A stretch of DNA of 44,906 bases from a virus. Each line of letters opens with the position of its first letter. The first letter of the stretch is position 1. The stretch covers positions 1 through 44,906 of the IMG/VR virus record IMGVR_UViG_3300024518_005171. One strand, written 5' to 3'. Positions 3,087 to 36,938 of this stretch are shown here, piece after piece. The notes beneath the pieces were generated by a model. The model did not search any database. It had not been told where the DNA came from and worked only from the letters and a program-made list of their open reading frames with translations. Both the position numbers and the translations under genes were made by a program.

Positions 3087-3121
3087 GGGTGTATAGTCGG
3101 ATCGACTATACACCCTTTTTT
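3087..3121 (+). terminator. Intrinsic terminator, plus strand
   Basis: A perfect 13-bp stem (GGGTGTATAGTCG with its complement, three-base loop GAT) is followed directly by six T residues. It ends the plus-strand transcript carrying the genes at 1765 and 2537. The last codons of the minus-strand terminase gene, including its stop, lie inside the hairpin. In the minus direction no T-tract follows, so it should act only on plus-strand transcription. Confidence 0.9.
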
Positions 3122-4806
3122 CGCCCTAAACCTGGCGCGTTTAAATCAGGACGTCTTCGCTCAAACTGGGATGCTAAGAGGGCGTAACAGCAAGTATGTA
3201 AGAAGTCATCCGGAACACCTTTGGGGTGATCAAACTTCAACGAACGTGACCTCTCGGAATACTCCGAGTAGACGGCTAAGATATCCATAGCAAAATCTTC
3301 CATCTGATCCCAATTCACAAAAGCAATACCACCAGAAACTGGACCACGTTTAATAAGACTAAAAACATCTTGAAGCACACGGGTCCTATGTGTGATGAAC
3401 TTACACCCGTGCTTATCCCATTTCACCTTTTCTTTCTGCCCATGCGAGTGGTAATAAAGGGCTACTTTATGTGCACCAAACGCTTTCTGTAGTTGTGCAT
3501 TTGAGTAAAAGCCGAAACCCCAGTCACAGCCAATTCTTGTGACACTAAACTTTCTACACCACCGCACTATATCCTTTACGGAGTGGTCTGGGTCGGCCTC
3601 TATTCCTTCGTACTTCTTAGCAAAGAGTAAACGAAACCTTCCTTCGAGATCATAATTCCATATAGAGAGAATCGTGAAGCTCTCACCGCCCGTTCCCCAG
3701 TCAACGCCTGCCCAGGAAGGGGCACTGCAGATACCACTGCTAGGCTCGAGAACAAGGTCATAGTTAGAGATGGCGCAGCGTCTAACCTCTTCATACGTAA
3801 CCGGCTTTGTCCCCTGGTCATACGAACGTGCCATGACCTCATTAGCAAACTTGGGCCGAGGATACCTTTTTCGTTTATCTAAAAGGCCTCGCCACATCCG
3901 AGTAAATATCTCGGAGTTCTCTGCGTTGGCATAGATTACAATCGGCTGGGGTAAGCGAAATCCTTCCCACTCCTGATTCTCTCTGCCAGTGCGTATCCAA
4001 CGAGCCTTCTCTCCCGTTGGGTCTAGTCGGTGCCCGCATCTACCCCCAGATGTATTCTTTATGCATATAAGGCCGGTGGGTCCGATGTTGTCTTCCTCGA
4101 TCGTGGACCATTTGCCACATCCATCACAGCGCACCATCCACTCATTCTGCGTAGAGAACCGGGACCAATAGAACTCAAGTGGATTATCAAAAGTCTTAGG
4201 GGTGCCTGAATAAATTGATATGGGCCCATTCTCTATTTCACAATGGAATAGAGTCTCCTCGATAACAGGAAGGAAATCTGTAACGATATCCTGGAGCTCG
4301 TCTACTCCCAATAAATCAGCGGCAATACCACGAACCCTGTCAGGGTTTTTATAAACGGACCTGAGTAGGATCTTCGATTTGTTCTTCCATCGCTTCGTTT
4401 GAACATTTTGAACCTGTCTATCCCCTCCAGGAACTAACCCTGCAAGTTGTTTGAGAACTGGGCTGTCCTCAATTACAGCTCGTAATCTTTCATCAGAGAA
4501 TTCACGCATTTGCTCGGAAGACGCAGTGACGTACAGTGCCCTAAGATAAGGAATAAGATTTGCCAAAGAGAGATTCATGTTGCCGATCGTCGTGCTTTTT
4601 TCACACTGTCGCCCGAAGATCAGGAGCAACTTTCTTCTCATGTTTCCGTCTGCCTGGGACGTTACCGGCATATTATAAATCGGCCATAGCCACGGACGTT
4701 TGTCTAACGAAAGAGGCTCTCCTTTATGTCGTATAGAAAACTCCGCCATCTCAAGTGGAGTAAGATCTACTGCAGTATTTAAATGTAATGGAATAACTCG
4801 TGCCAA
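3106..4806 (-). CDS. terL: Terminase large subunit (packaging ATPase and nuclease)
   Basis: This 566-residue protein is the DNA-packaging motor and headful or site-specific nuclease that docks on the portal. The N-terminal ATPase shows a Walker A-like GRQCEKST (residues 65-72), a Walker B LLGVDELQD (165-173) and a coupling motif SGTP (200-203). A four-cysteine zinc ribbon (C227, C230, C248, C257) is inserted between ATPase and nuclease. The RNase H-like nuclease has AGVDWG (D369), GCDWG (D428) and DDFLH (D533/D534). The usual second Gly of the Walker A is Glu here. The start is a TTG: an in-frame stop lies two codons upstream and the first ATG is at residue 20. The gene stands alone on the minus strand and overlaps the start of the plus-strand gene at 4800 by seven bases. 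Confidence 0.93.
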   Translation of the reverse strand: MARVIPLHLNTAVDLTPLEMAEFSIRHKGEPLSLDKRPWLWPIYNMPVTSQADGNMRRKLLLIFGRQCEKSTTIGNMNLSLANLIPYLRALYVTASSEQMREFSDERLRAVIEDSPVLKQLAGLVPGGDRQVQNVQTKRWKNKSKILLRSVYKNPDRVRGIAADLLGVDELQDIVTDFLPVIEETLFHCEIENGPISIYSGTPKTFDNPLEFYWSRFSTQNEWMVRCDGCGKWSTIEEDNIGPTGLICIKNTSGGRCGHRLDPTGEKARWIRTGRENQEWEGFRLPQPIVIYANAENSEIFTRMWRGLLDKRKRYPRPKFANEVMARSYDQGTKPVTYEEVRRCAISNYDLVLEPSSGICSAPSWAGVDWGTGGESFTILSIWNYDLEGRFRLLFAKKYEGIEADPDHSVKDIVRWCRKFSVTRIGCDWGFGFYSNAQLQKAFGAHKVALYYHSHGQKEKVKWDKHGCKFITHRTRVLQDVFSLIKRGPVSGGIAFVNWDQMEDFAMDILAVYSEYSERSRSLKFDHPKGVPDDFLHTCCYALLASQFERRRPDLNAPGLGRKKGV

Positions 4807-5961: not shown

Positions 5962-6805
5962 TGTCGACCTCCTTAAAATCTATATCTATAGGTCCTTCTT
6001 CTAACTCGTCCAGTGATGGAATAGCTCCTGCTCGTTTTACCATACGAAGCTTAAATGCCTGTGCATCTTTTCGCATGGTAGTACTCTCTACCTCTTGTGA
6101 GATCTCCTCTCTACGTTCGGCAGCGACTGCTGCTTGTCGGAATAATGCGGCCAGGCCGATCGCGCGTTGGCCACTACACTCTCCTCCAGATCGTCGAGTA
6201 GCCTGTACTTGCTGATTTGTGAACGCGATAAAATTATCAATGAGCTCCATCTCGTCAACACGTTGACGTAAACCAAGCATTCCATAAGTAGTAGCGATCT
6301 CCCCCGCCAAGGCCGGAAGAAGTTCTTTACGTTCTTCGTTGGCTTCCATAAAATCCCAGAGGCCTCCCTGGGACATCTCGCCAAGATTCCAGTACAGATA
6401 ATAAAAGGTCTCCAGATTCGGTATTGAGGGAACAAGCTTCTCTGGATGCTTCAACAATAACTCGGTCCTGGCGCGTTCTACTACCCCATGAACAGCAACA
6501 AGCGCCTCAAAGTCCTTCCGCACAGTTCCTGCGTGTAAGAACTTGTCCGCCATCCGAACCTGTGGCGTATTCTTCCACGCATCGTGTAGTCCTCGGTCTC
6601 GGAGCCACCTACGAAACGTAACATTCTTGTAATTGTAGTGCGGTTCCCAGCTATTGGGAGGATCTCCTAGTTCTGCCGAGAGTGCCTGGAGTGAGTCCTC
6701 AGTTGGAACCATCAGGTACCTTGCCGTACACGAAGCGGCAATCTCATAAGAGGTAAACCTCTTTGAGAGCAGATACATAAGGTATCTACGGTGTGGGTAC
6801 TCCAT
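5936..6805 (-). CDS. Helical protein in morphogenesis operon, unknown
   Basis: This encodes 289 residues and is almost entirely helical. The N-terminus (YLMYLLSKRFTSYEIAASC) could hold a helix-turn-helix. A low-complexity Ala/Arg/Glu stretch, FRQAAVAAERREEISQEVE, lies near residues 220-240. The 1-base TAATG junction at 6805 fixes the start. A small terminase subunit is conceivable because of the possible DNA-binding N-terminus and the position upstream of terminase. However, terminase is a separate unit and no family motif is visible, so I leave the function open. Confidence 0.65.
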   Translation of the reverse strand: MEYPHRRYLMYLLSKRFTSYEIAASCTARYLMVPTEDSLQALSAELGDPPNSWEPHYNYKNVTFRRWLRDRGLHDAWKNTPQVRMADKFLHAGTVRKDFEALVAVHGVVERARTELLLKHPEKLVPSIPNLETFYYLYWNLGEMSQGGLWDFMEANEERKELLPALAGEIATTYGMLGLRQRVDEMELIDNFIAFTNQQVQATRRSGGECSGQRAIGLAALFRQAAVAAERREEISQEVESTTMRKDAQAFKLRMVKRAGAIPSLDELEEGPIDIDFKEVDNVRKFPSR

Positions 6806-7275
6806 TAAGTTTTCCTCTTAAACCAATTACGGGGATCAACCGTTTCCTTAGTTTTTTTCGTGGCACCAGACACAGCCCCCTCACCGAATTCTTGGCCCGC
6901 CGCACGACTTACTCCCCTCGCCTCTTCGCGCAACGCACTAGATAATGCCTTACGCCACTTGGGTATATTCTTTATAAGACTTCGCGTACCTATTCCTCCG
7001 GCTGTGGCGGCCCCAGCGCCCACAAGAGCCGAAGCCAATAAAGCATCTCTGTTAAGCTTTTTACGCCTTTTAGCGGCAGCAGCAGGAGGCATACGTCCTG
7101 TATAAGCCAGCGCCTGGTTCAGCTGCTTTTGCTTTTTTTGCGACGACTTAACTCCTGCTAACGTCGCTAAAAGAGACGCGGTTCCCAAAGAGCCCCCCAC
7201 AGCTACGGGTGCACTAAGAGCTATCTTCTCTAGCTCATCATAAAAGTATTCAACGGTTGGAATAGACAGATGCAT
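6805..7275 (-). CDS. Small hydrophobic protein with ELEKIA tag
   Basis: This encodes 156 residues starting MHLSIPTVEYFYDELEKIA. Two hydrophobic Ala/Gly-rich segments, near residues 20-45 (VAVGGSLGTASLLATLAG) and 80-98 (ALLASALVGAGAATAGGIG), could be membrane helices. Lys/Arg-rich linkers surround them, and the C-terminus is basic. The N-terminal FYDELEKIA closely resembles FFLELEKIG in the gene starting at 21886, which has the same hydrophobic-basic architecture, so the two may be paralogous in design. TAATG joins it to the next gene and only six bases separate it from the previous one. The function is unknown; a membrane-interacting virion protein is one possibility. Confidence 0.7.
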   Translation of the reverse strand: MHLSIPTVEYFYDELEKIALSAPVAVGGSLGTASLLATLAGVKSSQKKQKQLNQALAYTGRMPPAAAAKRRKKLNRDALLASALVGAGAATAGGIGTRSLIKNIPKWRKALSSALREEARGVSRAAGQEFGEGAVSGATKKTKETVDPRNWFKRKT

Positions 7276-10636: not shown

Positions 10637-11313
10637 AAGAATCCTCCGCTATTAGAGACACCCGTAATCGGGGCAGGAACTGTAGTGGTTCCAGTGTAAA
10701 CTACTTCGGCTGAAATGGAAGCAATCCCCTTTGCCAAGGCTTCCGCATACACGGGAAGCTGATCTCCTAATGTTTGATTAAGGGGCTGCCCTGGAATATC
10801 GTCCCTACAAAACACCCCTGTAGCCTGAAACGCAACAGGAAGGGCAGTATTTAAAAGACCCAATGCGGCGCTTTCTAGACTAACATTGGCAACAGGATTT
10901 ACTACTCCAATGCCCGTTCCCATAGTAAGGTTTTCTGCCATCATAAGAATAGCGGACTGCGAGAAGATGCGTAAGGGAGCTACTATAAAAGAAACAGCAA
11001 CTCCATTTGCTTCTTTCCCCTTCCATCCCTGTGTTTGAAGAAAGTAATTCTTCGCTAATCCCGTATTAAAAGAAAAAGATGCGGGAGTCGGGACACCTGG
11101 CACATCGGCAGTACCTGCCCCGATATCATTTATTACGAGCTGACCTAATGTCTCAATGAGCCCTGTACACAACGCACTTATAAACTTCTCGGACGGGTTA
11201 TGAGGAGAAACCCCAGTGTCAGAATTAGTACGCGTAACGCCCGCGGAGTCTGGGTAACGAGATAAGTGGTCTGCATAAACAGCGCTAGAAAGAGCAACAG
11301 CATCGAGAGGCAT
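10633..11313 (-). CDS. Tail or baseplate structural protein, unknown family
   Basis: This encodes 226 residues starting MPLDAVALSSAVYADHLSR. It is rich in small and hydrophobic residues, with an N-terminal helical region and later Ala/Gly/Val-rich segments. It lies directly after the gp5-like spike gene, whose stop coincides with this start region, and before the small coiled-coil gene, to which it is coupled. No catalytic motif, signal peptide or clear membrane helix is seen. A baseplate component is plausible from gene order only. Confidence 0.65.
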   Translation of the reverse strand: MPLDAVALSSAVYADHLSRYPDSAGVTRTNSDTGVSPHNPSEKFISALCTGLIETLGQLVINDIGAGTADVPGVPTPASFSFNTGLAKNYFLQTQGWKGKEANGVAVSFIVAPLRIFSQSAILMMAENLTMGTGIGVVNPVANVSLESAALGLLNTALPVAFQATGVFCRDDIPGQPLNQTLGDQLPVYAEALAKGIASISAEVVYTGTTTVPAPITGVSNSGGFL

Positions 11314-12836
11314 TACGTCGGGTCCGGTATAAAAACAGGAGGGATCGCAGCAGGACCAGGAACCCCTCCAGCAGCGACAGAGGTACTACCCAAAAGAGGG
11401 ATACCGGTAACAAAATCTACGGGATGAGTCAGTGTTGTAATTACAGCCCCTCCTGCCGGAGGACCGATAGAAACAGACCCCTTTTGATCTAGAATAATGC
11501 TCCCGGCTTTAGTAGATATCTTAATCCCTGTGCCATTTACTTCCATCGTGGTAGCATTTGCTGTTTTCACTAGGACAGTGCCGCTCGGCTTCAATAAGAC
11601 CTCTGTAGGCGAACTAGACGCTACCCCTCCCGAGGTGAAGCGGGCCTTCCCTAGTTTGTTGTGTATCTGCAATAGACCCTGTGTAACAGACAGATTTGCG
11701 CCCGTGCCGTCTGCCTGGGAGTTAGCCACCTCAACCGTCCAAGTCCCCCCTACTACCGAAGTATCGCCAAAAGTAGTGCTGACGTGTCTATCATCTCCGA
11801 TTTCCTGGGTAACAGCACCCGTTACCGACTCCAGTTGAGAGCCACTTATAGTGCGTTTTTCCTCTCCTTTAATTTCCTTCTCAAGAGACCCTATTACTTT
11901 CGTTACCTTACCCGTAACCTTATAGGTCTCATTGCCTCCTACCTCTATAGACCGCTCACCCGTCACTTTTAACGTGTCACTTTGGCTGATAGTGACGGAA
12001 CGATTACCGTAGTTTGCCTTGTATAAACCTAAAACTTCCTCTGTAAGACTACTGCTATTTTCATGGCGACTGCCGTTTACCGCCGAGATTACATTGCCAT
12101 GAGCATATGTTTGTGCATTACCGTCCTTATCAATCCACACTCGATAGCGTTTGTTTATAAGAACTCGGGCAACTATCTTCCCCAGTAAAGCCCCCGCTAC
12201 CCGATCATCATCCTCTTCGGCAATCCGTCCTAAGCCCACATCGATAATGGGGTCTTCTTCGGCAAACTCTTTAACTTGTAAGCGCAGCTCAACGGGAGAC
12301 TTATCTGTTCCGTGAGAGTCATCCTCTCGCCTAGACCGAAAGGAAAACTTACCTCCTGTAGTGTCCAACGTATAGTTTTCCACTAGGTCTATGATTGAGT
12401 TTGCGATCGGTATGTAAAGACGTTGTGCGTTTTGTGTCGCGCCAATCTCTATAACCCCTCCCTTTCTTAATATGATAAAGTTCCCTTCGGATGACGAGAG
12501 GACCTGGTCTCCCTCATTAACGACTGGACGATTCATACGATAGTCATTTGGGTCCTCCGAATCGTCTCCCGCATCAGTTTGTTTAGGTACCGGAGCGGCC
12601 CCTAAAATAAACGGCGTCCGGGCTGAGGAAGGCTTCATTAACCAGACAACTGTATTCACTTCCGGCTGCCAATACATTCCGCCGCCGGATGAGTTTAGGT
12701 ACATGGGCATGGCCGCTATCCCATCGTGAACCCCTCCCTGTAGGTCAACTACAGTGCAGGTATACTTTACTTTGTCCACCGAGGTAATGCGTCCTTTAAG
12801 GACTTTGACATTGCCGTCTCGAGAATAGATTGCCAT
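11313..12836 (-). CDS. gp5/VgrG-like baseplate spike protein
   Basis: This encodes 507 residues starting MAIYSRDGNVKVLKGRITS. The start at 12836 is chosen over an in-frame ATG 18 bases upstream because it forms a TGATG junction with the RNA polymerase stop. The N-terminal 100 residues look like the OB-fold of gp5/gpV spikes (GRITSVDKVKYTCTVVDLQG, then W-rich VNTVVWLMKPSS). After residue 270 a beta-helix begins, with repeated V-x-G/I-x-G units (TLKVTGERSIEVGGNETYKV, then VTGKVTKVIGSLEKEIKG), as in T4 gp5. The C-terminus is Pro/Gly-rich (PGPAAIPPVFIPDP), suitable for a tip. It would form the membrane-puncturing device, which favours a contractile tail. No lysozyme domain is seen. Confidence 0.8.
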   Translation of the reverse strand: MAIYSRDGNVKVLKGRITSVDKVKYTCTVVDLQGGVHDGIAAMPMYLNSSGGGMYWQPEVNTVVWLMKPSSARTPFILGAAPVPKQTDAGDDSEDPNDYRMNRPVVNEGDQVLSSSEGNFIILRKGGVIEIGATQNAQRLYIPIANSIIDLVENYTLDTTGGKFSFRSRREDDSHGTDKSPVELRLQVKEFAEEDPIIDVGLGRIAEEDDDRVAGALLGKIVARVLINKRYRVWIDKDGNAQTYAHGNVISAVNGSRHENSSSLTEEVLGLYKANYGNRSVTISQSDTLKVTGERSIEVGGNETYKVTGKVTKVIGSLEKEIKGEEKRTISGSQLESVTGAVTQEIGDDRHVSTTFGDTSVVGGTWTVEVANSQADGTGANLSVTQGLLQIHNKLGKARFTSGGVASSSPTEVLLKPSGTVLVKTANATTMEVNGTGIKISTKAGSIILDQKGSVSIGPPAGGAVITTLTHPVDFVTGIPLLGSTSVAAGGVPGPAAIPPVFIPDPT

Positions 12837-15800
12837 CAGTACTGCCCCTTCCACTCCGGGCCAAGGGCTTTCTTACCACGACCAAATTCAGTTGCTTTAG
12901 CGATACCAGGAATCGGGTGAAATCCATGGATATTACTACTCCACCCCTCCCGTGCCGCCTGTGTAAGGGTACTACTCAATCGCTGGAAGTTCAGGCGAGC
13001 TATCCAGTCCTCCTGCATTTCCAGTGGAAGGATGTCAACTCCCTTTAAAACAGGTGTATGAAGGACGGGAGGCCCCTTTGTTTTCTTATTCCACCCCTTC
13101 ACTACGGACGTGGGTCGCATATCTCCTATAATCCAATCTGGGTGCGTTCCCGGATCATCTATATGCGTGACGTTTGTTAATGACTTCACTACTACCTCAA
13201 CATTCCTGCGTCTTACAGGGACCGCGGTAGATAAGACGCGTTGAAGTTCTGACGCAATATAATCTTGTACTGATTCTATGCCCTTAAGGGGTAGCAAATC
13301 GCGCGGGTCTATAACTCCATTAGAAAGAGGCTCTCCTTTGTCTACAGTATCTCGTAGCTTTACAGTTCTCTTCTGATTTCCTGGTACATAGTGGGTCACT
13401 TTATTGATGGTGACGTATTCCCCTCCTTGAGGGGCTCTTTGTACCTTAGAAACTACGCCACCTGTTAACGCTAGTGGAGCTGCGTCTTTCACTGTTTTGG
13501 GTAAGCGGAGAACGTTTCTAAGGCGCTCAAAAGTACCCTGACTCTTCGCACCAAGGCCTTTGGCCAGGCCTCCCGTGTGGAAGACGTTCATACTAAGCTG
13601 GGTAGCCGGCTCGCCAATAGACTGCCCTGCCATGATTCCTACATTATCGCCAATAGAATGGTCAGACCCTCCCGAAGCTAATCCCATACAGGTTTTACAC
13701 ACTCCATGGTCAGACTCGCACCTAAGAGGGGAACGAACAAATAAACGTTTCCTTTTAGCTCCCTTCGCCGCGGCTAACATATTGGGTGTTACCAAAGAGC
13801 CTGCTTTGTAGGAAGCTCCCGCTAGCCGAGCTCCCTTTGCTAGTTTTCGGTCGGTGATGTCTGCATTGTCTACGTCCAACCAGATGCCCCCGGACGTCTT
13901 ACAGTCCTTTTCCGTCACAAGCATATTCATGGTCGAATTCATGATTTGCTTGGACAAGTAGCCAGGATCACGAACTCCTTGGACCTTTTGGATAGTACCT
14001 TTCCTCGCACCGTGTAGTGATGTCCAATAAGACGCTATATCCATCCCTTCGGAGTAAGACCGAGGAATGAGGTAAGGAACTACTCGATCCTTAGCATCCA
14101 TCACCAGAACGGGAGAGCTGACAATCTGTTTTAACTGAACAGGCTTTCCTCTAGACCCAGAGGTGACCATACGAGAAATATTTGTAGGGTTCTTCTGTAA
14201 GTGTTCATTATTGAGCCTGTCTAACTCTGCATTGACCATCTGGAATATTTTAACAATCTTGGCATCTTTGGTTTTTTGCGTGAAACGCGTGTTCTTTCTT
14301 ATAGCAGACGCCCTTTCCTCAGCCTTCTGCATCAAACCATCCCGAACACTCTTATTGATAACAGAAAAGTCGTCGAGCCCAATAGAAAACCCCAGATCGG
14401 TACTGTAAGTATTTCCGATATCTTTAAGAGGATTAACTACCTCTCCAAAGGACTTAGGATGCTTCTTTGCGACGTAGGTTAGAACTTTTTTAACGTATGC
14501 CTTGTCAAATACCCTCATCTTATTGACCGAACGTTTTCCCGTCTCCTGTAGTTCCTTCGGCAACACGGCTTCTAATTTTAAACGGCCGGCTGTTGTCTCT
14601 GTATTGCCGATCTTTACGATGTCGGTATTCTTAATGTCACCGCGACGAGCTGCAGCCAATACATCGGAAGCCCCCTTGTATACCTTATTTGTCTTCTTAC
14701 CCGGTAACGAGAGAAGATAAAGCCCCAAAAGAGACTCATGGCCCGGCATATACATGACGGCGCCGGTCGTCGGATTAAATAAGTTATTGCTCGGAAATAG
14801 CTTTGTTGCCTCTTTCACCGCCTTTTCTCTAATGGGAAGATACACAGCCATAGCGTCCCCATCAAAATCAGCATTGTAGCCCCCGGTTACAAGAGGATGG
14901 ATCTCGATCGCTTTCCCTTTTACAAGACGAGGTTTAAAGGCCATTATATTAAACTTATGGAGTGCTGGGTCGCGCTTTAGGAAGATAGGACGGTCTCCCA
15001 TTGCCCTAGTAAGGGCTTTCTCTGCTACAGGAGATCTCTCTGTTACTTCATCTCCTGCGTCTAGCATTTTGTAACCCTGCCGAACAAGTTCACGCTCAAT
15101 GAAAGGACGATATATAGACCATGCCATCTCTTCGGGTAAACCAAGCTCGTCTATCCCCATTCGAGGCTCGGGAGTAATAATGGAACGTCCACTAAAATCC
15201 TGCCTACGCTTTAAAAGCCGCTTTTGAAAATAGCCATGCTTGGCTCCTCCTGTACTATCTCCATGCACAGGATTTCTTGTCTTGCCTGAAATGATATCCA
15301 AAATTCCCTTATAGCCACCTGCCTCTTTCCGCGTAAGGCTACCCCCAAGGCCCGTTAATGCCTTAAGCCCGTCATAAAGCTCTCCCCGCAATTCGGCTAG
15401 ATGCTTATCGGTTATGCCCAAGCCTTTCGTGGTAGTTAGCGCCTCATTAACTGCCGCCAAATCCTTATAAAGACCGTTCAAGTCATTACTAGATAAGCTT
15501 CCCCCTTCTTTAGCAATAAGGGGCCTAAAGATAGGAGGAAGAACCGGAACAGATTTCATCATATAAACAGTCGGCGCTAAATCATTTTTATCGAGTGCCT
15601 TTAAAATACGTAAGCGTGCATGAAGTCGCGGACGTCCCGATTTTGATGCAGTAGAAAGTTTAGTTTCTACCTCGGCGATCTCCTTCTTCACATCAACGGA
15701 TTTCAACATACTTTCAATAGCTGCACCACCTCTCTTACCATTGACTTCTACCTCTCCCTTCACAATATTTTTGTAGCGAGATGCAGTAACTCCCAAGAGT

Positions 15801-18800
15801 TTCTTAATAGCGTCTTCAAAAAGAGGATTAGGCATACTTTCTGCGAGTTTAAAATGCGCCCACTTACGTCCGTCCATGCCGCCAGTAATCTTTTCATCAA
15901 ATAAGCCTCCTGGGATAGGCTTATTATCTTTCCCCCGTATGACGAGTCCTGGGTCTTTAAGTTCTCCCGAAGATAGCGTCTGTACTTGATTCTCCGTAAA
16001 GGGGACAAGCATTAAATGGTTGCCCTCCTTCTTCACATTCACTCTCATCGCGTTTAGGTAGTTTAAGAACTTGTCGTATGCGAATGGAACTTTAGGCGGG
16101 GGAAGAGGCGTCCCCTCTCGAATAGCATCCCAGAGGTCCTCATTTCTACCAGACTTGTACGCAAACATCTCGTGTAGATTCTCACGAGCTCCGTGGGCCA
16201 GCATGGCATAAAGACCCAATTCCCCAAGGGTCTGCCCTCCATGAGGAGCCCCGCCCGCTGGAGAATGATTAACGTCGTAATGCGACCCAGGTCCGCCTGT
16301 TCCGGACCTGGCCGAGACCTTCTTACCTACTTGGTGCTTTAGCTTTAGAATATATTGCTGGCCCACGAGAACCTTTTGACCATAAGGTTTCTCCGTTGTC
16401 GGATTAATCAATACATCTTTGTCTTGTAATCCTGCCGCTTTAAGCTCCCCCTTTAAGGACTCTAGATAATCTTTCCCTGGCTCAAAGTTCCGCACTTTGT
16501 ATACCTTGCCCCTCTCCGCAGCTATCTTTCCTGCGACAGTTTCAAGGATCTGGCCGAGGTTAATACGTCCAGGAACTCCGAGTGGATTCATAAGAACGTC
16601 TACATGGTCCCTATCTTCTCCCTCTTTCAACGAATAAGGCATTTGAGACGTCGGAATAATGCGAGTAATAACCCCCTTATTTCCGTGACGGCCTACAATC
16701 TTATCTCCTATCTGAGCGGCTTCCTTCGTCTTAACATTTACAACGACGTCACTGCCGCGTTTATATACATCCGTGACAATACCCTTCGTTGGTTTGTCCC
16801 AACGAATCGCAGCGTCTGAAAATTTAATTGGGCGCCCTCGCCGAAAGGCATTGATTTGCTTACGGAACTTCGACTCGGAGGGTTTTCGAACAGCAAGAAT
16901 AAGGGGGTCACCTTCGCTCACCTCCGCCCCGATCTTAATCACCCCATCGCTTCCAATCTTATCGATTTGGCCTTTTATGAATTCGTAAGGGCGTTGCGAT
17001 AGATACTTTCCCTTTCCTATATGAGTATCCAAGTTCTCTTCGAGGTCTTTCTCATATAAGTGAAGAGACGTCAGCTTCTTGGCGGCGTCGTCAGAAATAA
17101 CAATACCATCTTCAAAGTTATACCCATGAAAGGGCATATATGCAGTCTTAAGATTGGTTCCGAGAGCCAACTTTCCTTCGCGCGTAAAGGTTGAATCAGC
17201 CAAAAGCTGCCCCTTCTTTACTCGATCTCCTACCTTAACCTTCACCTCGGAGTCATAAAGAGTGTGACCCTTAAGAGGAAAGTCCCTATAAAACTGAACC
17301 TCGTGCTTCTTTCTACCTGACTTAATCACAACGGCGTCATGCTTAATCTCTACGACTTTTCCTTCGATAGGTGCCGTGGCCGATGCATACTTCCCTAAAA
17401 TCTCCTCAAACGACTTTTCCTGGTCTGTCTTTACTTGGACTAAAGGGGCTTCTCGATTCTCTAGCGGAACGGCCTGCTCTTGCTGACGCGCAGCTGTCAT
17501 GGCTCGATTGCCCTGATTATTTTGAAGGAAAGGTATTAGGTTAGACGCTACGCCAAAAAGGGCCCTAGGGCTGGGAATCACATACTCAACCTCGGAGGGA
17601 GGTACATGTACAATCTCACCTCCCCTGGTCGCCTTGATTAAATCCCCTCTTGGTGAGAACTTCTTATCCTTTCTGTCATATTGATCTGGGAAGGCTACGG
17701 TAGCTTCTGACATCTCCTCCGGTGTCAACCTAATACGCTCACCCGTAGAAGGGCGTTGAACAAGAGAGACAAGAGTATTTCCTTTCTTCCTTACTCCAAG
17801 GGGGAATGCCAATGAAACGCCAGTCTTCTCTCCCTCGGGCGTATGTATGGGGTCTAAAAAACCCAAATGAGAGGGATTAATAAGCTTCGCATCCTGGCTA
17901 ATCGCGTGCGGAGATTTAATGCCCCCCTGCTCACCCATGATTGTGGTCTTAGACCTTCCGGCTAATATCTCAAGGGGGTTTACCTGTTCCGGTTGCGTTA
18001 CAAGAGACGTCTGAAAAAAGCTATTGATCACCTTATCAAACTCATCACGATTTACAACGTTTCGAACCGACCTCTTGCTGTCAATCCTGCGTAGAATTCT
18101 ACGCTTGACTGCCGAAGCTGCCTTCCGCAGTCTACCGTCTAAAAGGTCTTCAAATGAGTGAACACTTTGGTAGGTCAGTGCGTTCTTATCATCTGCCTCC
18201 TTAACTCCGCGTGAGATATCAAGAAGATTGGACGTCGACTGCAAAAGAGCAGAGGGAGTAACAGATGAGTAGGCCTTTCCGAGAGTTCTTTTTGTCGTAT
18301 CTTCGCGTAGTTGCGTAGCCTTTAAAAGGTCCCCGAATAAGGAAGCATGCTCTTCTGGAGATGCCGGTTTTTTACCGTGAACGGCCTTATAGAATCGAGT
18401 ATACGCCTGGTCCTTACCGAGCCGTTGCTTATTTTTCTTTAAAACCTCGGCTCCCCACCGCTTCTCAAGGTCGCTGTCGCTTACTCCCGCGCCTCGCAAG
18501 AGATGGTAAACGGGAATCTCGGAGTTCTTATGACGTAGGTAGAAAATCCCCTCTTCTGGCTTTAGGTTGAGAGAGAAGGTACGCCCGCCAGCGAGTTGGT
18601 TTGGATTAGCTAAATTAAAGTCGGCCAGCAGCTCCCCATTTCGGGCGACTCTATGGTAGACACCAGACTTCAGCCGCAGCTGGTTTAGTGTCTGATATTC
18701 ATTTCCCTTAATGATATACCCATATCGCTTTGTCATTTTCGGAAGATGCATCAAAAGAATACGCTTTCTATCGATCTCCTTGCCGTCTCTCTCTAAGCCT

Positions 18801-19012
18801 AAGTCCGCGTACACAGGCACGGCCCAGGTAGTTTTACGCTTCATAGCGTTTCTCTGGGAACGCAAGTCGTTTACGTCTAACTTGTCGTCTACGCTAACTC
18901 CGTGCAACACCAACCGAGACTTCTTACTGCCTACAGGAAAGTAGTCCTTTACAGTTCCCTCAATCTTCTTTTTGAGCGTTTCAAACTGATCTTGGGGGGT
19001 AGTTAGCAGCAT
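12836..19012 (-). CDS. rpoBC: Fused beta-beta' multisubunit-type RNA polymerase
   Basis: This single 2058-residue chain carries both large subunits of bacterial-type RNA polymerase. The beta part has YIIKGNEYQTLNQL (99-112), the rifampicin-pocket region (341-365), HTPEGEKTG (390-398), GYNFEDG (630-636), GRHGNKGV (774-781), NPLGVPGRINLGQILET (809-825) and GGQTLGELGLYAML (925-938). Beta-prime begins near residue 1000 and shows QDFSGRSIITPEPRMGIDEL (1271-1290), the catalytic NADFDGD (1380-1386), SLHGARKG (1665-1672), the second zinc site (C1704, C1765, C1772, C1775) and the trigger-loop region IMAGQSIGEPATQLSMNVF (1793-1811). The first beta-prime zinc site is absent. At 2058 residues it is much shorter than E. 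coli beta plus beta-prime (about 2750). It heads the morphogenesis operon and is coupled to the spike gene; the Shine-Dalgarno is weak. No alpha, omega or sigma gene is visible. Confidence 0.97.
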   Translation of the reverse strand: MLLTTPQDQFETLKKKIEGTVKDYFPVGSKKSRLVLHGVSVDDKLDVNDLRSQRNAMKRKTTWAVPVYADLGLERDGKEIDRKRILLMHLPKMTKRYGYIIKGNEYQTLNQLRLKSGVYHRVARNGELLADFNLANPNQLAGGRTFSLNLKPEEGIFYLRHKNSEIPVYHLLRGAGVSDSDLEKRWGAEVLKKNKQRLGKDQAYTRFYKAVHGKKPASPEEHASLFGDLLKATQLREDTTKRTLGKAYSSVTPSALLQSTSNLLDISRGVKEADDKNALTYQSVHSFEDLLDGRLRKAASAVKRRILRRIDSKRSVRNVVNRDEFDKVINSFFQTSLVTQPEQVNPLEILAGRSKTTIMGEQGGIKSPHAISQDAKLINPSHLGFLDPIHTPEGEKTGVSLAFPLGVRKKGNTLVSLVQRPSTGERIRLTPEEMSEATVAFPDQYDRKDKKFSPRGDLIKATRGGEIVHVPPSEVEYVIPSPRALFGVASNLIPFLQNNQGNRAMTAARQQEQAVPLENREAPLVQVKTDQEKSFEEILGKYASATAPIEGKVVEIKHDAVVIKSGRKKHEVQFYRDFPLKGHTLYDSEVKVKVGDRVKKGQLLADSTFTREGKLALGTNLKTAYMPFHGYNFEDGIVISDDAAKKLTSLHLYEKDLEENLDTHIGKGKYLSQRPYEFIKGQIDKIGSDGVIKIGAEVSEGDPLILAVRKPSESKFRKQINAFRRGRPIKFSDAAIRWDKPTKGIVTDVYKRGSDVVVNVKTKEAAQIGDKIVGRHGNKGVITRIIPTSQMPYSLKEGEDRDHVDVLMNPLGVPGRINLGQILETVAGKIAAERGKVYKVRNFEPGKDYLESLKGELKAAGLQDKDVLINPTTEKPYGQKVLVGQQYILKLKHQVGKKVSARSGTGGPGSHYDVNHSPAGGAPHGGQTLGELGLYAMLAHGARENLHEMFAYKSGRNEDLWDAIREGTPLPPPKVPFAYDKFLNYLNAMRVNVKKEGNHLMLVPFTENQVQTLSSGELKDPGLVIRGKDNKPIPGGLFDEKITGGMDGRKWAHFKLAESMPNPLFEDAIKKLLGVTASRYKNIVKGEVEVNGKRGGAAIESMLKSVDVKKEIAEVETKLSTASKSGRPRLHARLRILKALDKNDLAPTVYMMKSVPVLPPIFRPLIAKEGGSLSSNDLNGLYKDLAAVNEALTTTKGLGITDKHLAELRGELYDGLKALTGLGGSLTRKEAGGYKGILDIISGKTRNPVHGDSTGGAKHGYFQKRLLKRRQDFSGRSIITPEPRMGIDELGLPEEMAWSIYRPFIERELVRQGYKMLDAGDEVTERSPVAEKALTRAMGDRPIFLKRDPALHKFNIMAFKPRLVKGKAIEIHPLVTGGYNADFDGDAMAVYLPIREKAVKEATKLFPSNNLFNPTTGAVMYMPGHESLLGLYLLSLPGKKTNKVYKGASDVLAAARRGDIKNTDIVKIGNTETTAGRLKLEAVLPKELQETGKRSVNKMRVFDKAYVKKVLTYVAKKHPKSFGEVVNPLKDIGNTYSTDLGFSIGLDDFSVINKSVRDGLMQKAEERASAIRKNTRFTQKTKDAKIVKIFQMVNAELDRLNNEHLQKNPTNISRMVTSGSRGKPVQLKQIVSSPVLVMDAKDRVVPYLIPRSYSEGMDIASYWTSLHGARKGTIQKVQGVRDPGYLSKQIMNSTMNMLVTEKDCKTSGGIWLDVDNADITDRKLAKGARLAGASYKAGSLVTPNMLAAAKGAKRKRLFVRSPLRCESDHGVCKTCMGLASGGSDHSIGDNVGIMAGQSIGEPATQLSMNVFHTGGLAKGLGAKSQGTFERLRNVLRLPKTVKDAAPLALTGGVVSKVQRAPQGGEYVTINKVTHYVPGNQKRTVKLRDTVDKGEPLSNGVIDPRDLLPLKGIESVQDYIASELQRVLSTAVPVRRRNVEVVVKSLTNVTHIDDPGTHPDWIIGDMRPTSVVKGWNKKTKGPPVLHTPVLKGVDILPLEMQEDWIARLNFQRLSSTLTQAAREGWSSNIHGFHPIPGIAKATEFGRGKKALGPEWKGQY

Positions 19013-19034: not shown

Positions 19035-19057
19035 TTATTCTCGCATAAGGAGAGTGA
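19035..19057 (+). promoter_or_regulatory. Shared upstream element, copy 2
   Basis: This copy matches TTNNTCNNNCATAAG, five bases, TGA and lies 30 bases before the GTG at 19088. A second CATAAGG occurs 29 bases further on (19073-19079) and merges with the Shine-Dalgarno. Thirteen consecutive bases, TCTCGCATAAGGA at 19039-19051, are identical to those at 23671-23683. The element sits in the divergent gap before the RNA polymerase gene, so a bidirectional role cannot be excluded. Confidence 0.55.
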
Positions 19058-19174: not shown

Positions 19175-19239
19175 TGATTTGGATACTCGTTGCAATTAGT
19201 GCCCTACACGGGGTTTTAATAGGAATTTTGGACGCCTAA
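19174..19239 (+). CDS. Membrane micro-peptide (21 aa)
   Basis: A 21-residue frame starts in the TAATG at the end of the preceding micro-ORF. Almost the whole peptide is one hydrophobic helix (MIWILVAISALHGVLIGIL) ending in Asp-Ala, so it would be a single membrane-spanning peptide. A potential Shine-Dalgarno, AAGGAG, lies 12 bases upstream within the first ORF. The stop overlaps the end of the minus-strand portal gene by four bases. Possible roles include a holin modulator, antiholin or membrane-protein partner. None of these is shown by the sequence. Confidence 0.5.
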   Translation: MIWILVAISALHGVLIGILDA

Positions 19240-21131
19240 ATTACAGCATCACTTCTTCTAGGAGGTCTTTGCTCGGGCAGGGGTTCCTGCTCGAGCGCCC
19301 TCTTAACAGTTAACTTTTGCCGGATCAGGTCGTGTAGATGAGGATTTTGCGTATGCATCTTACTTAAAACAACGTCCTGTTCCTGTGGAGCCATGCCGCC
19401 CAATTTTTTCGCCCAAGCATCCGCAAGATCAATAACGTTCACATGCGGCACTCCTGCTACATCCTCTACGCCCTGAGGGGGAGGTGCGGGAGGCTGACCG
19501 GGAGGCGGAGGCGCCCCCGCAGATCCCATCTGGTCCTGCTGCATTCGCTCTTGAGCCTCTCTCATTCGCTCCTGAGCCCTTATCTGAAAGCTGGTAGAAA
19601 CCTCTTGAGCTTCTCCTTGAATCGCCGTCTTGTACAGCGTGTCTAGTTTCTGTACCTCTAAATTACGGCGCATCTCCTGCTCGATAATTTTAAGCTCCTG
19701 GAGTGAGTCCTTATCAAATTCAGAGAGAAGGGTTTTATCAGAAACCTTATTCATCTGGTTAAGAGATAGCAGGAGCTGCTTAGTCTGAACATCATCAGCC
19801 ATCTTAAACGACCTCATATGCACAGAGATGGACTCCCAGTTCATAAACCGAGCCACGTTAGGGATTAAAAAGTCGCGCAGAAAATGTTCGTGGAGGTCTC
19901 TATAGGTCATAAACTGATTCTCGAGCATCCGGAGAGAAACACTTGAGCCGCTCCAAGAAAGACCACCAAATACGAACTCCTGAGGAACCCCCATGCCCGC
20001 GATGATGTGCTCTGACCAAGCTCTAATCTCATTTGTAAGCATTAGAGCTCGTCCATCTCCGCCAATACGTTGATGCCCTACAGGTAATGGAAGAATGGGT
20101 TTGTAGTTAGGGTCCCACTTCCACTTCACAATCTCTGCTTCAATACGCCGCTTCCAATCAGATAGATTGACGGTCAAATATGGGTTAGCCGTTTGGTCTA
20201 CTGATGCAGGGTAGATGATATCTAACGGTACCAGGTGTTCAAGCATTACGGCTTCTTGGGCCTTCTTCATAACTTGCAGGTAGAAACTATCTTTAAGTGC
20301 TGGGAGAATCAGGGGGTAACCCCATCCTTCGTCATTTGCACTCAAAGATGGCGTGGGCGCCTTAAAGTGAAACACGTTGTCCTTGTGCAAAACTACGGGC
20401 CGTCGTACTTTCATAGCACGCATAAAGTGATCTGGGAGTTCCTCTAAGTACCTAAGTTTCTTGGAGAGCACCTTCTTTCGAACTTTCGCTGGAACGTTAT
20501 ACGCAAACTCTTTCTGTTGCGTAATCGGGTTAAAATCTATCTCTAGGTCCTGAGGATTCCACCGGATCAGCTTAATGTCACGATAAGATCTATAGTATTC
20601 ATCTTTGACTTTGGCGGCGCCGTTATGCCCGCACTTTGGGCACATAAGAACATACTGAAAGTTCTTGAATTGCCACGCCTTCTTATACTCAAGACGCTTA
20701 ATCCTCTCTTGATAGCCACACTTACACTGCAGATATTTATGGAAAGGGAACATTATAGAAACCACACAATTCCCATATCCGTAGTAATCTAGGCCAGCCT
20801 CTAGCTGAAACCTACCAATACTCAAAACACGAAAAAGAAGGTCTTCCCATCGGTCTTTATTTTTTCTGAATCCCTCGGGAGGCTCTTCCTCAATAATGAT
20901 GTCTGTAATTGGATAAGACGCCATTTTCTTGGTAACAGCACTTACCAGAGGATTCACCAGCATATGATACCGACACCAGCGAAACAAATGTTTCACGGTG
21001 GTAGGCAGATTCATTTGCGCAACATCCCACCAGGCGGAGGGATAACGGAACGTATTGTTTGCCCCGTCCTTATTTGTACGAGGTCCCGAAAATCGACTGC
21101 CGCCGCCGCCAGTGAAGCTACCAAATGCCAT
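19236..21131 (-). CDS. Portal protein with inserted zinc ribbon
   Basis: This encodes 631 residues forming the predicted dodecameric portal through which DNA enters the head and on which terminase docks. The portal-type core includes PVVLHKDNVFHFKAPTPSLS, EGWGYPLILPALKDSFYLQV, ILPLPVGHQRIGGDGRALM and the VPQEFVFGGLSWSGSSVSLR segment (about residues 387-406), typical of large phage portals. A CKCG...CPKCG zinc ribbon (C136, C138, C164, C167) is inserted in the N-terminal third. The end is helical, then Pro-rich (GAPPPPGQPPAPPPQG) and acidic/basic. It is coupled by TAATG to the upstream gene at 21131 and ends the minus-strand unit that starts at 23636. Confidence 0.88.
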   Translation of the reverse strand: MAFGSFTGGGGSRFSGPRTNKDGANNTFRYPSAWWDVAQMNLPTTVKHLFRWCRYHMLVNPLVSAVTKKMASYPITDIIIEEEPPEGFRKNKDRWEDLLFRVLSIGRFQLEAGLDYYGYGNCVVSIMFPFHKYLQCKCGYQERIKRLEYKKAWQFKNFQYVLMCPKCGHNGAAKVKDEYYRSYRDIKLIRWNPQDLEIDFNPITQQKEFAYNVPAKVRKKVLSKKLRYLEELPDHFMRAMKVRRPVVLHKDNVFHFKAPTPSLSANDEGWGYPLILPALKDSFYLQVMKKAQEAVMLEHLVPLDIIYPASVDQTANPYLTVNLSDWKRRIEAEIVKWKWDPNYKPILPLPVGHQRIGGDGRALMLTNEIRAWSEHIIAGMGVPQEFVFGGLSWSGSSVSLRMLENQFMTYRDLHEHFLRDFLIPNVARFMNWESISVHMRSFKMADDVQTKQLLLSLNQMNKVSDKTLLSEFDKDSLQELKIIEQEMRRNLEVQKLDTLYKTAIQGEAQEVSTSFQIRAQERMREAQERMQQDQMGSAGAPPPPGQPPAPPPQGVEDVAGVPHVNVIDLADAWAKKLGGMAPQEQDVVLSKMHTQNPHLHDLIRQKLTVKRALEQEPLPEQRPPRRSDAVI

Positions 21132-21886
21132 TATGAACTCCTCTCACGCCGCGTTTTGATCCGAAAGGCTTTTTTAGCACGTCTAAGTTCCTTCTTCCGA
21201 ACTTTCATCTCCTTGCGAGGAATGCCCTTGCCCGTAATACCTCTATGCCATTCATATTGCGTTATATTCTTTGCTACATGAGGAGCTGCCGCCATAGCGG
21301 CGCCCGTCAATGCCGTAATGGCCGCGGCCTTTCCTCGTTTAAGTGCTGGTTTTTTAAGCCTTTTGAGAACCTCCTTAACCCCCTTCTCATGAATTTCTCG
21401 GCGCAATTCTGGGCTTAGGGCTCCCATCTCCTTTGGCAAATTCTTGGCCACGTCTCGGACGGATTTAGGGCCCCTGGGCCCGTGACGCGTCTTCCGCACA
21501 ACGCCCTTTATCAATGACCTTTTCCATGTAGCAGGAATACCGCTAACTGCGCTAACGTCCTCCGAGAGACTCTTCACTAACTTACCGCGGCCTTTCTTAG
21601 AGACGGCCGTCAAGGGAGACTTTCCTAGTACAAGACCAGATGCAAGACCTCCTATGGCGCCAATACCTACTACTTTTGGCACTTTATGTAAGTACGCAAG
21701 ACGTCTATCATTTTCACCTGTTTTCTTATCATAAATACCGAGGTCTCTCGGGGCTGCCTTAAGACCAATCTCTACCGAGCTTCCCGAGTGGGGGAATCGT
21801 TTCACAGGGCTTTCTGCTCCCCAGGCATCTCTACGAGCAGCAGCTCCTATCTTCTCCAACTCTAAAAAGAACTCTTCATAAATCAT
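21131..21886 (-). CDS. Basic, hydrophobic virion-like protein with ELEKIG tag
   Basis: This encodes 251 residues starting MIYEEFFLELEKIGAAARRD. It is very basic, with long Lys/Arg-rich runs at the end (KEMKVRKKELRRAKKAFRIK). Two Ala/Gly-rich hydrophobic segments lie near residues 70-92 (VVGIGAIGGLASGLVLG) and 185-205 (AAAITALTGAAMAAAPHVA). The N-terminal tag and the architecture match the 156-residue gene at 6805-7275. It is coupled to the gene before it by ATGA and to the portal by TAATG. A DNA-contacting or membrane-interacting virion component would fit the charge and hydrophobic segments, but the family is unknown. Confidence 0.7.
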   Translation of the reverse strand: MIYEEFFLELEKIGAAARRDAWGAESPVKRFPHSGSSVEIGLKAAPRDLGIYDKKTGENDRRLAYLHKVPKVVGIGAIGGLASGLVLGKSPLTAVSKKGRGKLVKSLSEDVSAVSGIPATWKRSLIKGVVRKTRHGPRGPKSVRDVAKNLPKEMGALSPELRREIHEKGVKEVLKRLKKPALKRGKAAAITALTGAAMAAAPHVAKNITQYEWHRGITGKGIPRKEMKVRKKELRRAKKAFRIKTRRERSS

Positions 21887-24526: not shown

Positions 24527-24778
24527 ATGTCACAGACACTCGGCGAGCTGTTAAAAAATTTAAGAGTAGCGCAAGGGTGGAAGTTACAGGATGTCGTTGC
24601 CCAGTTCGGGGAAAGAGGCTGGTCCACATCAACCTCCGCAGTTTCCAGATTCGAGAATAATCACAGAACTCCATCAATAGAATACCTAAGTCAGCTGTTA
24701 GAATTATATGAAGCGGACGCGTCCACCCGTGCATTGGCTACACGACTTCCAGTAGAAAAAGTCGAGAGTGCCCCATGA
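24527..24778 (+). CDS. XRE-family helix-turn-helix regulator 1
   Basis: This encodes 83 residues starting MSQTLGELLKNLRVAQGWKL, with AGGAAAGG as ribosome site; a longer start at 24476 overlaps the likely promoter and is less likely. It is a Cro/C1-type helix-turn-helix: LGELLKNLRVAQGWKLQDVV, a short insertion, then STSAVSRFENNHRTPSIEYL as recognition helix and the characteristic following turn. There is no further domain, so it is a minimal repressor-type protein. It overlaps the next regulator by ATGA. Its place at the head of the 16 kb DNA-metabolism block suggests control of early or middle transcription. Confidence 0.88.
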   Translation: MSQTLGELLKNLRVAQGWKLQDVVAQFGERGWSTSTSAVSRFENNHRTPSIEYLSQLLELYEADASTRALATRLPVEKVESAP

Positions 24779-25161
24779 AACTAGGACGAATTATTAGCAA
24801 AGCGCGACAAGAAAATCCGCGATTTAAAACAAAGAAATCATTAGCAGAAGCTGTAGGCGTATCTCTGGAATACATAAGAAAAATAGAATCTGGGGACTCT
24901 AGGCCCTCTGGTCGAATCTTGGAGGCGATTATCTCCGAGCTCGATATGTCTGAAAAACTAGAAAAGCGTTGCTGGAAATTGCTGGCAGAGCGTCAGTTAG
25001 ATCCTATTACACGGCGACATGTGCGCCTGGATGGCACAACCAATGGTATAGGCCCTCTTGCAGCTAGGTTTGCTGCAGAATGGGTACAACAGTACTACGA
25101 CATCTCGGAAGAGGATTGCAAGATTCTCAGGGAGGAGATTGTTCAAAAACTAAGGAAGTAA
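24775..25161 (+). CDS. XRE-family helix-turn-helix regulator 2
   Basis: This encodes 128 residues. The N-terminal 60 residues are a Cro/C1-type domain (IISKARQENPRFKTKKSLAE, then VGVSLEYIRKIESGDSRPSG). The C-terminal half (LDPITRRHVRLDGTTNGIGP, then a helical end) is not a family I recognise and could mediate dimerisation. It is coupled by ATGA to the first regulator and lies two bases before the SF2 helicase gene. The two neighbours share little beyond the fold, so a recent duplication is unlikely. Confidence 0.85.
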   Translation: MKLGRIISKARQENPRFKTKKSLAEAVGVSLEYIRKIESGDSRPSGRILEAIISELDMSEKLEKRCWKLLAERQLDPITRRHVRLDGTTNGIGPLAARFAAEWVQQYYDISEEDCKILREEIVQKLRK

Positions 25162-36318: not shown

Positions 36319-36938
36319 TTGAGGGGCCTTACTCTGACGTACAATGTCGTAAATGCGGAGAGACTGGCATTGTACGTATTGGTCGCCGACTCAAAAACGG
36401 TCAATACAAAGTAAAGGACTTTATACAACACAAACCAGACTGTGCAAACGTGGGTACCTCGTCGCAACCTAGGCACTTACGAAAGAAGGGATGGCGACCC
36501 CAAGAAAAGCGAGCCAACAAACTAGTTGGCGCTAGAGCAACTCCCGCTTCGGGGGCACTTAATCAAGATGGGGATGGCAGAGAATTTCATGGCTGGCGCG
36601 TCGAAGCCAAACAAACCACAAAAGCCTCATACACACTTACTCAAAATGTATGGCAAAAGCTGACGTACGGCGCGCTTAGCAACGGAGAAGAACCACTTCT
36701 ACACGTGGAGAGTAGATCTGGTCACTCTACAGAGAGAAGAGTGGTCATTCTAGCTCCTATGTATGAAGCACTCCAAGGAACCCCCTCCTCGATAAAGTCG
36801 ATGGGAAGAGTCAGCACCACTCACAGAATTGGCGGCTATGGAGCGGGACCGTTCAAAGTTGAACTAGACCCACCTGGCGTCGAAATGGACGAAGGATATT
36901 TTCGCCGCTTAAAGGAAGAATACGATGGAAATAGTTGA
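36315..36938 (+). CDS. Zinc-finger plus PD-(D/E)XK-type nuclease, possible resolvase
   Basis: This encodes 207 residues. The N-terminus has a C-x2-C...H-x3-C zinc site (C11, C14, H39, C43). A nuclease-like core follows: [16 protein letters not shown], with D85/D87 and the E-x-K pair E97 and K99, then [14 protein letters not shown], in the order of PD-(D/E)XK enzymes such as archaeal Hjc-type junction resolvases. The C-terminus is a charged tail. It is ATGA-coupled to RecA and precedes the Cas4/RecB-type nuclease, so a role in branched-DNA processing is likely. The exact substrate is inferred. Confidence 0.65.

Follow-up and report, generated by a model that had tools for sequence, protein, structure and literature searches.

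Does a single reading frame in a phage genome encode the core of a cellular-type RNA polymerase (RNAP), and with which partners would such a core work? The question is raised by one gene in the IMG/VR virus record IMGVR_UViG_3300024518_005171, a virus fragment of 44,906 bases that we analysed over its whole length (the window). The gene lies on the minus strand and consists of a single ATG-to-stop open reading frame (ORF), 2058 codons long, in which the main domains of the beta and beta-prime (beta') subunits stand together (Table 1); the plus-strand reading of the same interval is riddled with stops. The fusion is confirmed as a real feature of the window, encoded in one open frame. Taken with what we found in its relatives, the enzyme is most likely a late polymerase that works as one chain under the direction of a sigma and belongs to a phage lineage of its own.

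The fused polymerase and its lineage

A preliminary description of this DNA had reported beta motifs followed by beta' motifs in the 2058-codon frame, and every motif that it quoted was located in the translation: GYNFEDG (residues 630-636), GRHGNKG (774-780) and NPLGVPGRINLGQILET (809-825) in beta, and NADFDGD, zinc site 2 (C1704, C1765, C1772, C1775) and GQSIGEP in beta'. Profile searches with Pfam and NCBIfam agree with its view that this is a compact single-chain beta-beta' polymerase in a tailed phage. The Pfam domains follow one another in the order Rpb2_3, Rpb2_6, Rpb2_7 and then Rpb1_1, 2, 3, 4 and 5, with E-values of 4e-58 for Rpb2_6, 1e-26 for Rpb1_2 and 5e-25 for Rpb1_5, and with the matches to Rpb2_7, Rpb1_1 and Rpb1_3 lying under the Pfam cut-offs. 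Among NCBIfam models, TIGR02013 and TIGR02386 both match within the one chain, and PRK09603, the model for the beta/beta' fusion of Helicobacter, gives the top full-length match (1.8e-176), but with 589 bits where the cut-off is 5372. The nearest relatives in the PDB are bacterial beta' chains (E ~1e-169).

Alignment with the E. coli subunits indicates which parts of the bacterial enzyme have been kept. The beta C-terminus (E. coli ...SLGINIELED) joins beta' at about residue 18 of the latter, with no linker and with the first ~17 beta' residues gone. The N-terminal zinc-binding domain of beta' (E. coli ~67-98) is deleted in all 10 of the phage sequences aligned. Zinc site 2, the bridge/trigger region and the catalytic NADFDGD are kept in the fused enzyme; one relative (L012) no longer has the zinc-2 cysteines. 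A flap tip remains in altered form, and the segment that follows the retained clamp helices is somewhat shorter than in E. coli. The positions that contact rifampicin (E. coli D516, H526, S531) are changed in the phage alignment, and we therefore predict that the phage enzyme, and hence phage transcription, is insensitive to the drug.

Table 1. Features of the window, with positions, strand and the evidence on which each rests
Feature	Position	Strand	Basis
Fused beta-beta' RNA polymerase gene, 2058 aa	12836..19012	-	Translation; Pfam/NCBIfam profiles
Beta part, ~residues 1-997	16022..19012	-	Pfam Rpb2_3/6/7; E. coli RpoB alignment
Beta' part, ~residues 998-2058	12836..16021	-	Pfam Rpb1_1 to Rpb1_5; E. 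coli RpoC alignment
Catalytic NADFDGD, residues 1380-1386	14855..14875	-	Translation; near-invariant across alignment
Fusion junction, residues ~994-1010	15983..16033	-	Beta end '...LNAMRVNVKKEG' passes straight into beta' 'NHLMLVPF...'
Beta' clamp helices (sigma-binding coiled coil), ~residues 1190-1225, retained	15338..15445	-	E. coli alignment
Promoter-like element CTTATGCGAGAATA, 14 bp	19036..19049	-	~36 nt upstream of RNAP start codon
Second copy of element, CTTATGCGAGATAA	23668..23681	-	Upstream of likely true start of first structural-operon gene
Portal protein gene, directly upstream of RNAP gene	19236..21131	-	Homolog of Arash portal gp204
Baseplate hub/spike-like gene, overlaps RNAP gene end	11313..12854	-	phrog_430 2.9e-6; Gp5_trimer_C below cut-off
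Terminase large subunit	3106..4806	-	phrog_675 1.6e-42; GpA_ATPase

A scan of IMG/VR with the fused protein returned 20 relatives. The whole fusion lies in one ORF in L002, L004, L005, L006, L007, L009, L010 and L012, at 30-68% identity, and likewise in L011/L015, L016, L020 and L013 once in-frame inserts are set aside; contig ends cut the gene in L003 and L008, where the junction is nonetheless spanned. The occurrence of the complete fusion in independent contigs excludes an assembly artefact, and neither an assembly join nor a missed stop, which the preliminary description had named as a risk near residues 990-1000, was found there. In a further set (L014, L017-L019, Salmonella phage Arash and Vibrio phage D69) the link between beta and the first part of beta' persists, and the chains stop near window residue 1470, just past the catalytic barrel. 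A gene of its own encodes the remainder of beta' in Arash (gp216), D69/D181 and G012; in G015 the remainder gave weaker matches, and in G016 and G017, both incomplete records, it was not found. The simplest history would be that beta and beta' fused once, at the base of the clade, and that beta' was split later on.

The polymerase genes of this lineage are also hosts to inserted elements. Inserts that are in frame, with intein-like borders and LAGLIDADG or Intein_splicing domains, sit at conserved sites in the RNAP ORFs of L011/L015, L013, L016, L020 and L017-L019; the L020 gene has up to four, with two placed around zinc site 2 and the trigger loop. A homing-endonuclease gene (L022, 7447-8395), probably as part of a self-splicing intron, splits the frame for beta and the first part of beta' in Vibrio phage D181, and the D69 ORF is intact.

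Phylogenetic analysis places the phage enzymes apart from the bacterial ones. A tree built from 22 phage rows and 26 bacterial ones puts the phage RNAPs on one side of a branch with a Shimodaira-Hasegawa-like approximate likelihood ratio (SH-aLRT) support of 100, and they are again separate, with an SH-aLRT of 100, under the LG+C20 mixture model with fewer long branches (18 phage and 16 bacterial rows). When Carin-5, GN1, RHph_Y65 and Vibrio 1.031.O, phages with separately encoded subunits, were added to a beta' tree with 14 bacterial rows, the fused rows formed one group (100) and the added phages fell elsewhere on long branches. These trees sampled bacteria and phages; archaeal, eukaryotic, Helicobacter, Wolbachia and published mReC (see below) sequences were left out, and rooting was not addressed. 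A scan of genome contigs returned only cellular RNAPs of at most ~31% identity. Since the phage RNAPs lie outside all bacteria sampled, with the mixture model as well, a recent bacterial fusion is ruled out as their origin, and the placement inside a bacterial clade against which the preliminary description had cautioned is not seen. Its contrast between phiKZ-type polymerases and those of marine Caudovirales needs refining, since the fused clade also stands apart from phages with separate beta and beta' genes.

Beta-beta' fusions are found in bacteria too: a Candidatus Jorgensenbacteria contig (L072, 8656-14661) carries one, and in its relative L079 the frames are separate and overlap. L072 falls inside Patescibacteria, and its fusion is independent of that in the phages. 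Several database records labelled as phage hold bacterial-type rpoB/rpoC (Acinetobacter phage MD-2021a, Salmonella contigs AFYI/AGRM, and wastewater contigs of Enterococcus, Staphylococcus and Listeria). We treated them as bacterial on the strength of tree position, for those included, and of neighbouring genes; in MD-2021a ribosomal protein genes adjoin rpoB/rpoC.

Possible partners of the core and promoter-like elements

We found no alpha (PF01000) or omega (PF01192) in the window or 21 further records at E-values up to 1, with control genomes positive, and no alpha dimerisation domain (PF01193) in 11 records. The absence of alpha and omega, noted for the window in the preliminary description, thus extends to these relatives. 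Its companion statement, that there is no sigma, is wrong for the lineage: nearly all of the longer relatives (74-187 kb) encode a sigma70-family protein. The overall interpretation offered there accordingly stands for alpha and omega and falls for sigma, the window being a fragment.

Four close relatives (G002, G006, G007 and G008) share a protein of 239-250 aa with matches to sigma70 region 3 or region 4, and NCBIfam sigma models match it down to 1.6e-10. A profile of five members matches 11 of 24 records, including G013, Arash, where the protein is annotated as a sigma factor, D69/D181, G012 and G015. A sigma was found in every fused-lineage record of at least 74 kb, G016 (120 kb) having a longer sigma only, and the profile had no match in records of 63 kb or less. 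Among 50,697 phage records searched with tblastn, the family occurs only in Arash, D69, D181, D148 and one 4.4-kb fecal contig; the four named phages are the same isolates that hold the fused-lineage RNAP. An AlphaFold model of the protein (predicted local distance difference test score, pLDDT, 74) aligns over its whole length with sigma factors of solved holoenzymes. In the phage of L013 it is a different sigma70 gene that comes next after the RNAP gene. A helix-turn-helix (HTH) protein in the window (24775-25161) was not counted as a sigma, its match to sigma region 4 being weak and its HTH_3 match much stronger.

The region upstream of the polymerase gene, a gap of ~220-360 nt in close relatives, holds a conserved element. 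All six close genomes show CTTATGC, two variable bases and then GA at a distance of 36-40 nt upstream of the RNAP start codon; the window 12-mer recurs with at most 2 mismatches in all five other upstream regions, and of 100 Markov-shuffled sets none exceeds 3. Copies also stand ahead of what is likely the true start of the first structural gene, namely in the window, L002, L006 and G006. In a second sub-clade it is CTTATACC that precedes the RNAP gene and the structural operon, as well as the terminase of some members. This sequence occurs 27 times in G013, against 6.1 expected, and 21 of the copies are intergenic; at positions +24 and +25, columns that played no part in finding the copies, T stands in 19 and 18 of these 21, respectively. 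We infer that these elements are promoters. In G006, three more copies (at 104107, 105151 and 105713) are each followed immediately by a GC-rich inverted repeat, as if they drove very short RNAs.

Gene neighbourhood and possible virion packaging

The window also encodes a terminase, a portal, a baseplate hub/spike-like protein, a DnaB-type helicase, a primase, a family-A DNA polymerase and an XPB-like helicase, a set of structural and replication genes that identifies its source as a tailed phage. Relatives of the window portal gene have PHROG portal matches, and the top Foldseek matches of its low-confidence model (pLDDT 58), which serve as support only, are phage portals. The portal lies upstream of the RNAP gene in the window, L002, L005, L006, L009, L012, L013, L016, D181, D69 and Arash, with one or two small ORFs intervening in some genomes. 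A pyrophosphatase (InPase) domain (E ~1e-50) opens the RNAP chain of L014 and L017-L019, and in L017/L018 (8150-15436) LysM and phage tail lysozyme domains likewise lie within the InPase-RNAP chain. Virion packaging of such InPase domains has been inferred as probable (Iyer et al., PMC5512222). The position of the RNAP gene in a portal-baseplate module, together with the InPase and lysozyme domains in the same chain on a distant branch, suggests that the polymerase may itself be packaged in the virion and injected, for which we consider the chances about even.

Other observations concern the rest of the window. An N-terminal peptide, F-x(1-4)-L-x-K-I/L-A (for example, FYDELEKIA), is shared by otherwise unrelated small proteins, 11 of them against 0.08 expected from shuffled N-termini; its carriers are the window genes at 6805-7275 and 21131-21886 and genes of G006, G007, L004 and L006. 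The N-terminus of the G013 sigma, FLNFCGIEKVA, is loosely similar. The peptide is a candidate packaging or targeting signal. A protein with a Cas4-type exonuclease domain (PHROG 1706, 1.1e-30) is encoded at 36925-38250, in the replication gene block. Scans of the window for tRNAs and Rfam families found nothing.

How the enzyme may work

Several known systems resemble the fused polymerase in part. The mReC phages (Weinheimer and Aylward 2020, PMC7481178) are likewise tailed-phage contigs, many of them from IMG/VR, whose beta and beta' can be aligned with cellular subunits and form a clade apart from cellular RNAPs; here, too, cellular-type profiles recognize beta and beta', with NADxDGD, and the RNAP lies in a phage clade apart from the bacterial rows in each of the three trees (26, 16 and 14 rows; SH-aLRT 100). 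The main text of that study describes no beta-beta' fusion in mReC, mentioning fusion for crAssphage only, does not mention alpha or sigma by name, and reports 8 major capsid proteins detected in 97 contigs, all eight PF07068. A search of the window and of 17 other fused-lineage records found no PF07068, the capsid marker of mReC (VOG11186); two phages with unfused subunits, Cobetia phage Carin-5 and Rhizobium phage RHph_Y65, do have it. The mReC terminase (PF03237, VOG01069) has no match in the window, exceeds the cut-off only in Arash and is weak in eight other records. As the capsid feature failed, and the comparison was with the main text only, a firm assignment to mReC was dropped.

The bacterial fusions of Helicobacter and Wolbachia (PRK09603, PRK14844) also run from beta to beta' in one chain and are among the best full-length NCBIfam matches, but they are ~2840-2890 aa long against 2058 aa here, and the phage chain scores far under their cut-offs (589 versus 5372 bits), lacks the beta' zinc-binding domain and is not nested in the bacteria sampled. 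The phiKZ/AR9-type RNAPs of jumbo phages (PMC7598289) share cellular descent and the lack of alpha and omega, but consist of four or five polypeptides and have no recognizable sigma, whereas here there is one ORF, with a sigma70-family protein in relatives. The single-chain enzymes of P23-45 (gp96/gp64) and crAss-like phage phi14:2 (gp66) contain both catalytic barrels, and P23-45 gp96 is located in the virion (PMC10770324); those enzymes are highly diverged and minimal, whereas the present one has nearly the full bacterial set of clamp helices, flap, zinc site 2 and trigger loop. By analogy, its mode of working would be most like that of an alpha-less phage RNAP such as the phiKZ non-virion RNAP. 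A literature search, with most subscription papers and bioRxiv outside its reach, returned no prior description of a phage rpoB-rpoC fusion of this kind.

On balance, we lean towards a model in which a fused core without alpha is characteristic of the whole lineage and works with a phage sigma on late promoters, and in which the enzyme is possibly packaged in virions. One polypeptide would supply the whole catalytic core of a cellular-type RNAP in a tailed-phage lineage that lacks alpha and omega, and the fusion would take over the job of the alpha dimer in keeping the two large subunits together. The sigma70-family protein, which is observed to co-occur with the polymerase, would pick promoters by docking on the retained beta' clamp helices, and the holoenzyme would read CTTATGCGAGAATA, the element present before the structural operon and the polymerase gene. 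The enzyme would be a late product that drives the late genes and its own synthesis, and might be packaged in the virion and then injected. A more complete form of this model, a two-part system of a deep tailed-phage lineage in which a single-chain core needs neither alpha nor omega, pairs with a dedicated sigma70-family factor that has its own promoters, and travels in the virion, is one that we hold only tentatively. Several points weigh against the model that we favour. Members of the lineage are known here from sequence, and so is the promoter-like element, for whose scan the weight matrix was trained on the same sites that were later found; the virion step relies on gene neighbourhood and distant relatives, the window enzyme having no extra domain. 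An alpha may have diverged beyond the reach of profiles, and the phage sigma could redirect the host RNAP instead. The sigma gene is not in the window, a lack that is best read as truncation, the record being a 44.9-kb fragment.

If the fused core were instead built on the host alpha dimer and omega, the fusion would be a convenience and not a replacement. The failure to find phage alpha or omega fits such a hybrid, as do Rpb2_6, Rpb2_7 and the beta C-terminal 'GGQ..GELGLYAMLAHGA' region, which are still clearly bacterial-like. However, the lineage is not specially similar to any single bacterial RNAP among those found, and phiKZ-type and P23-45 RNAPs function without alpha (PMC7598289, PMC10770324), so that we regard a hybrid as unlikely. 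It is also improbable, in our view, that the enzyme is a virion RNAP for early genes only, packaged, injected and reading early promoters by itself while the phage sigma steers the host RNAP to late ones. The proximity of the gene to the portal in the structural operon, the InPase, LysM and lysozyme fusions and the single-chain precedent of P23-45 gp96 (PMC10770324) are in keeping with that role, but the sigma family keeps company with this RNAP and is not seen in other phages, the sigma and RNAP genes are adjacent in the phage of L013, and the beta' clamp helices are retained. Maturation proteases are common in tailed phages, which would favour a polyprotein whose cleavage releases beta and beta' and gives a conventional working enzyme, although no protease search was made here. 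The sequence is compatible with such a polyprotein; however, the junction has neither a linker nor an obvious cleavage site, and the join is retained even where beta' splits elsewhere, near residue 1470, and we consider this explanation very unlikely.

To our knowledge, all cellular multisubunit RNAPs assemble on an alpha-type platform. A natural one-chain core with nearly all of the bacterial parts and a sigma of its own would make the question of whether fusion can replace alpha and omega directly testable, and isolated relatives, namely Salmonella phage Arash (recorded host Typhimurium ATCC 14028) and Vibrio phages D69/D181, make such tests practical. The lineage, with its fused enzyme, its sigma and no alpha or omega, thereby offers a pared-down form of cellular transcription machinery that can be put to the test. 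If the two-part system is real, it would be among the smallest sigma-dependent polymerases of the cellular type.

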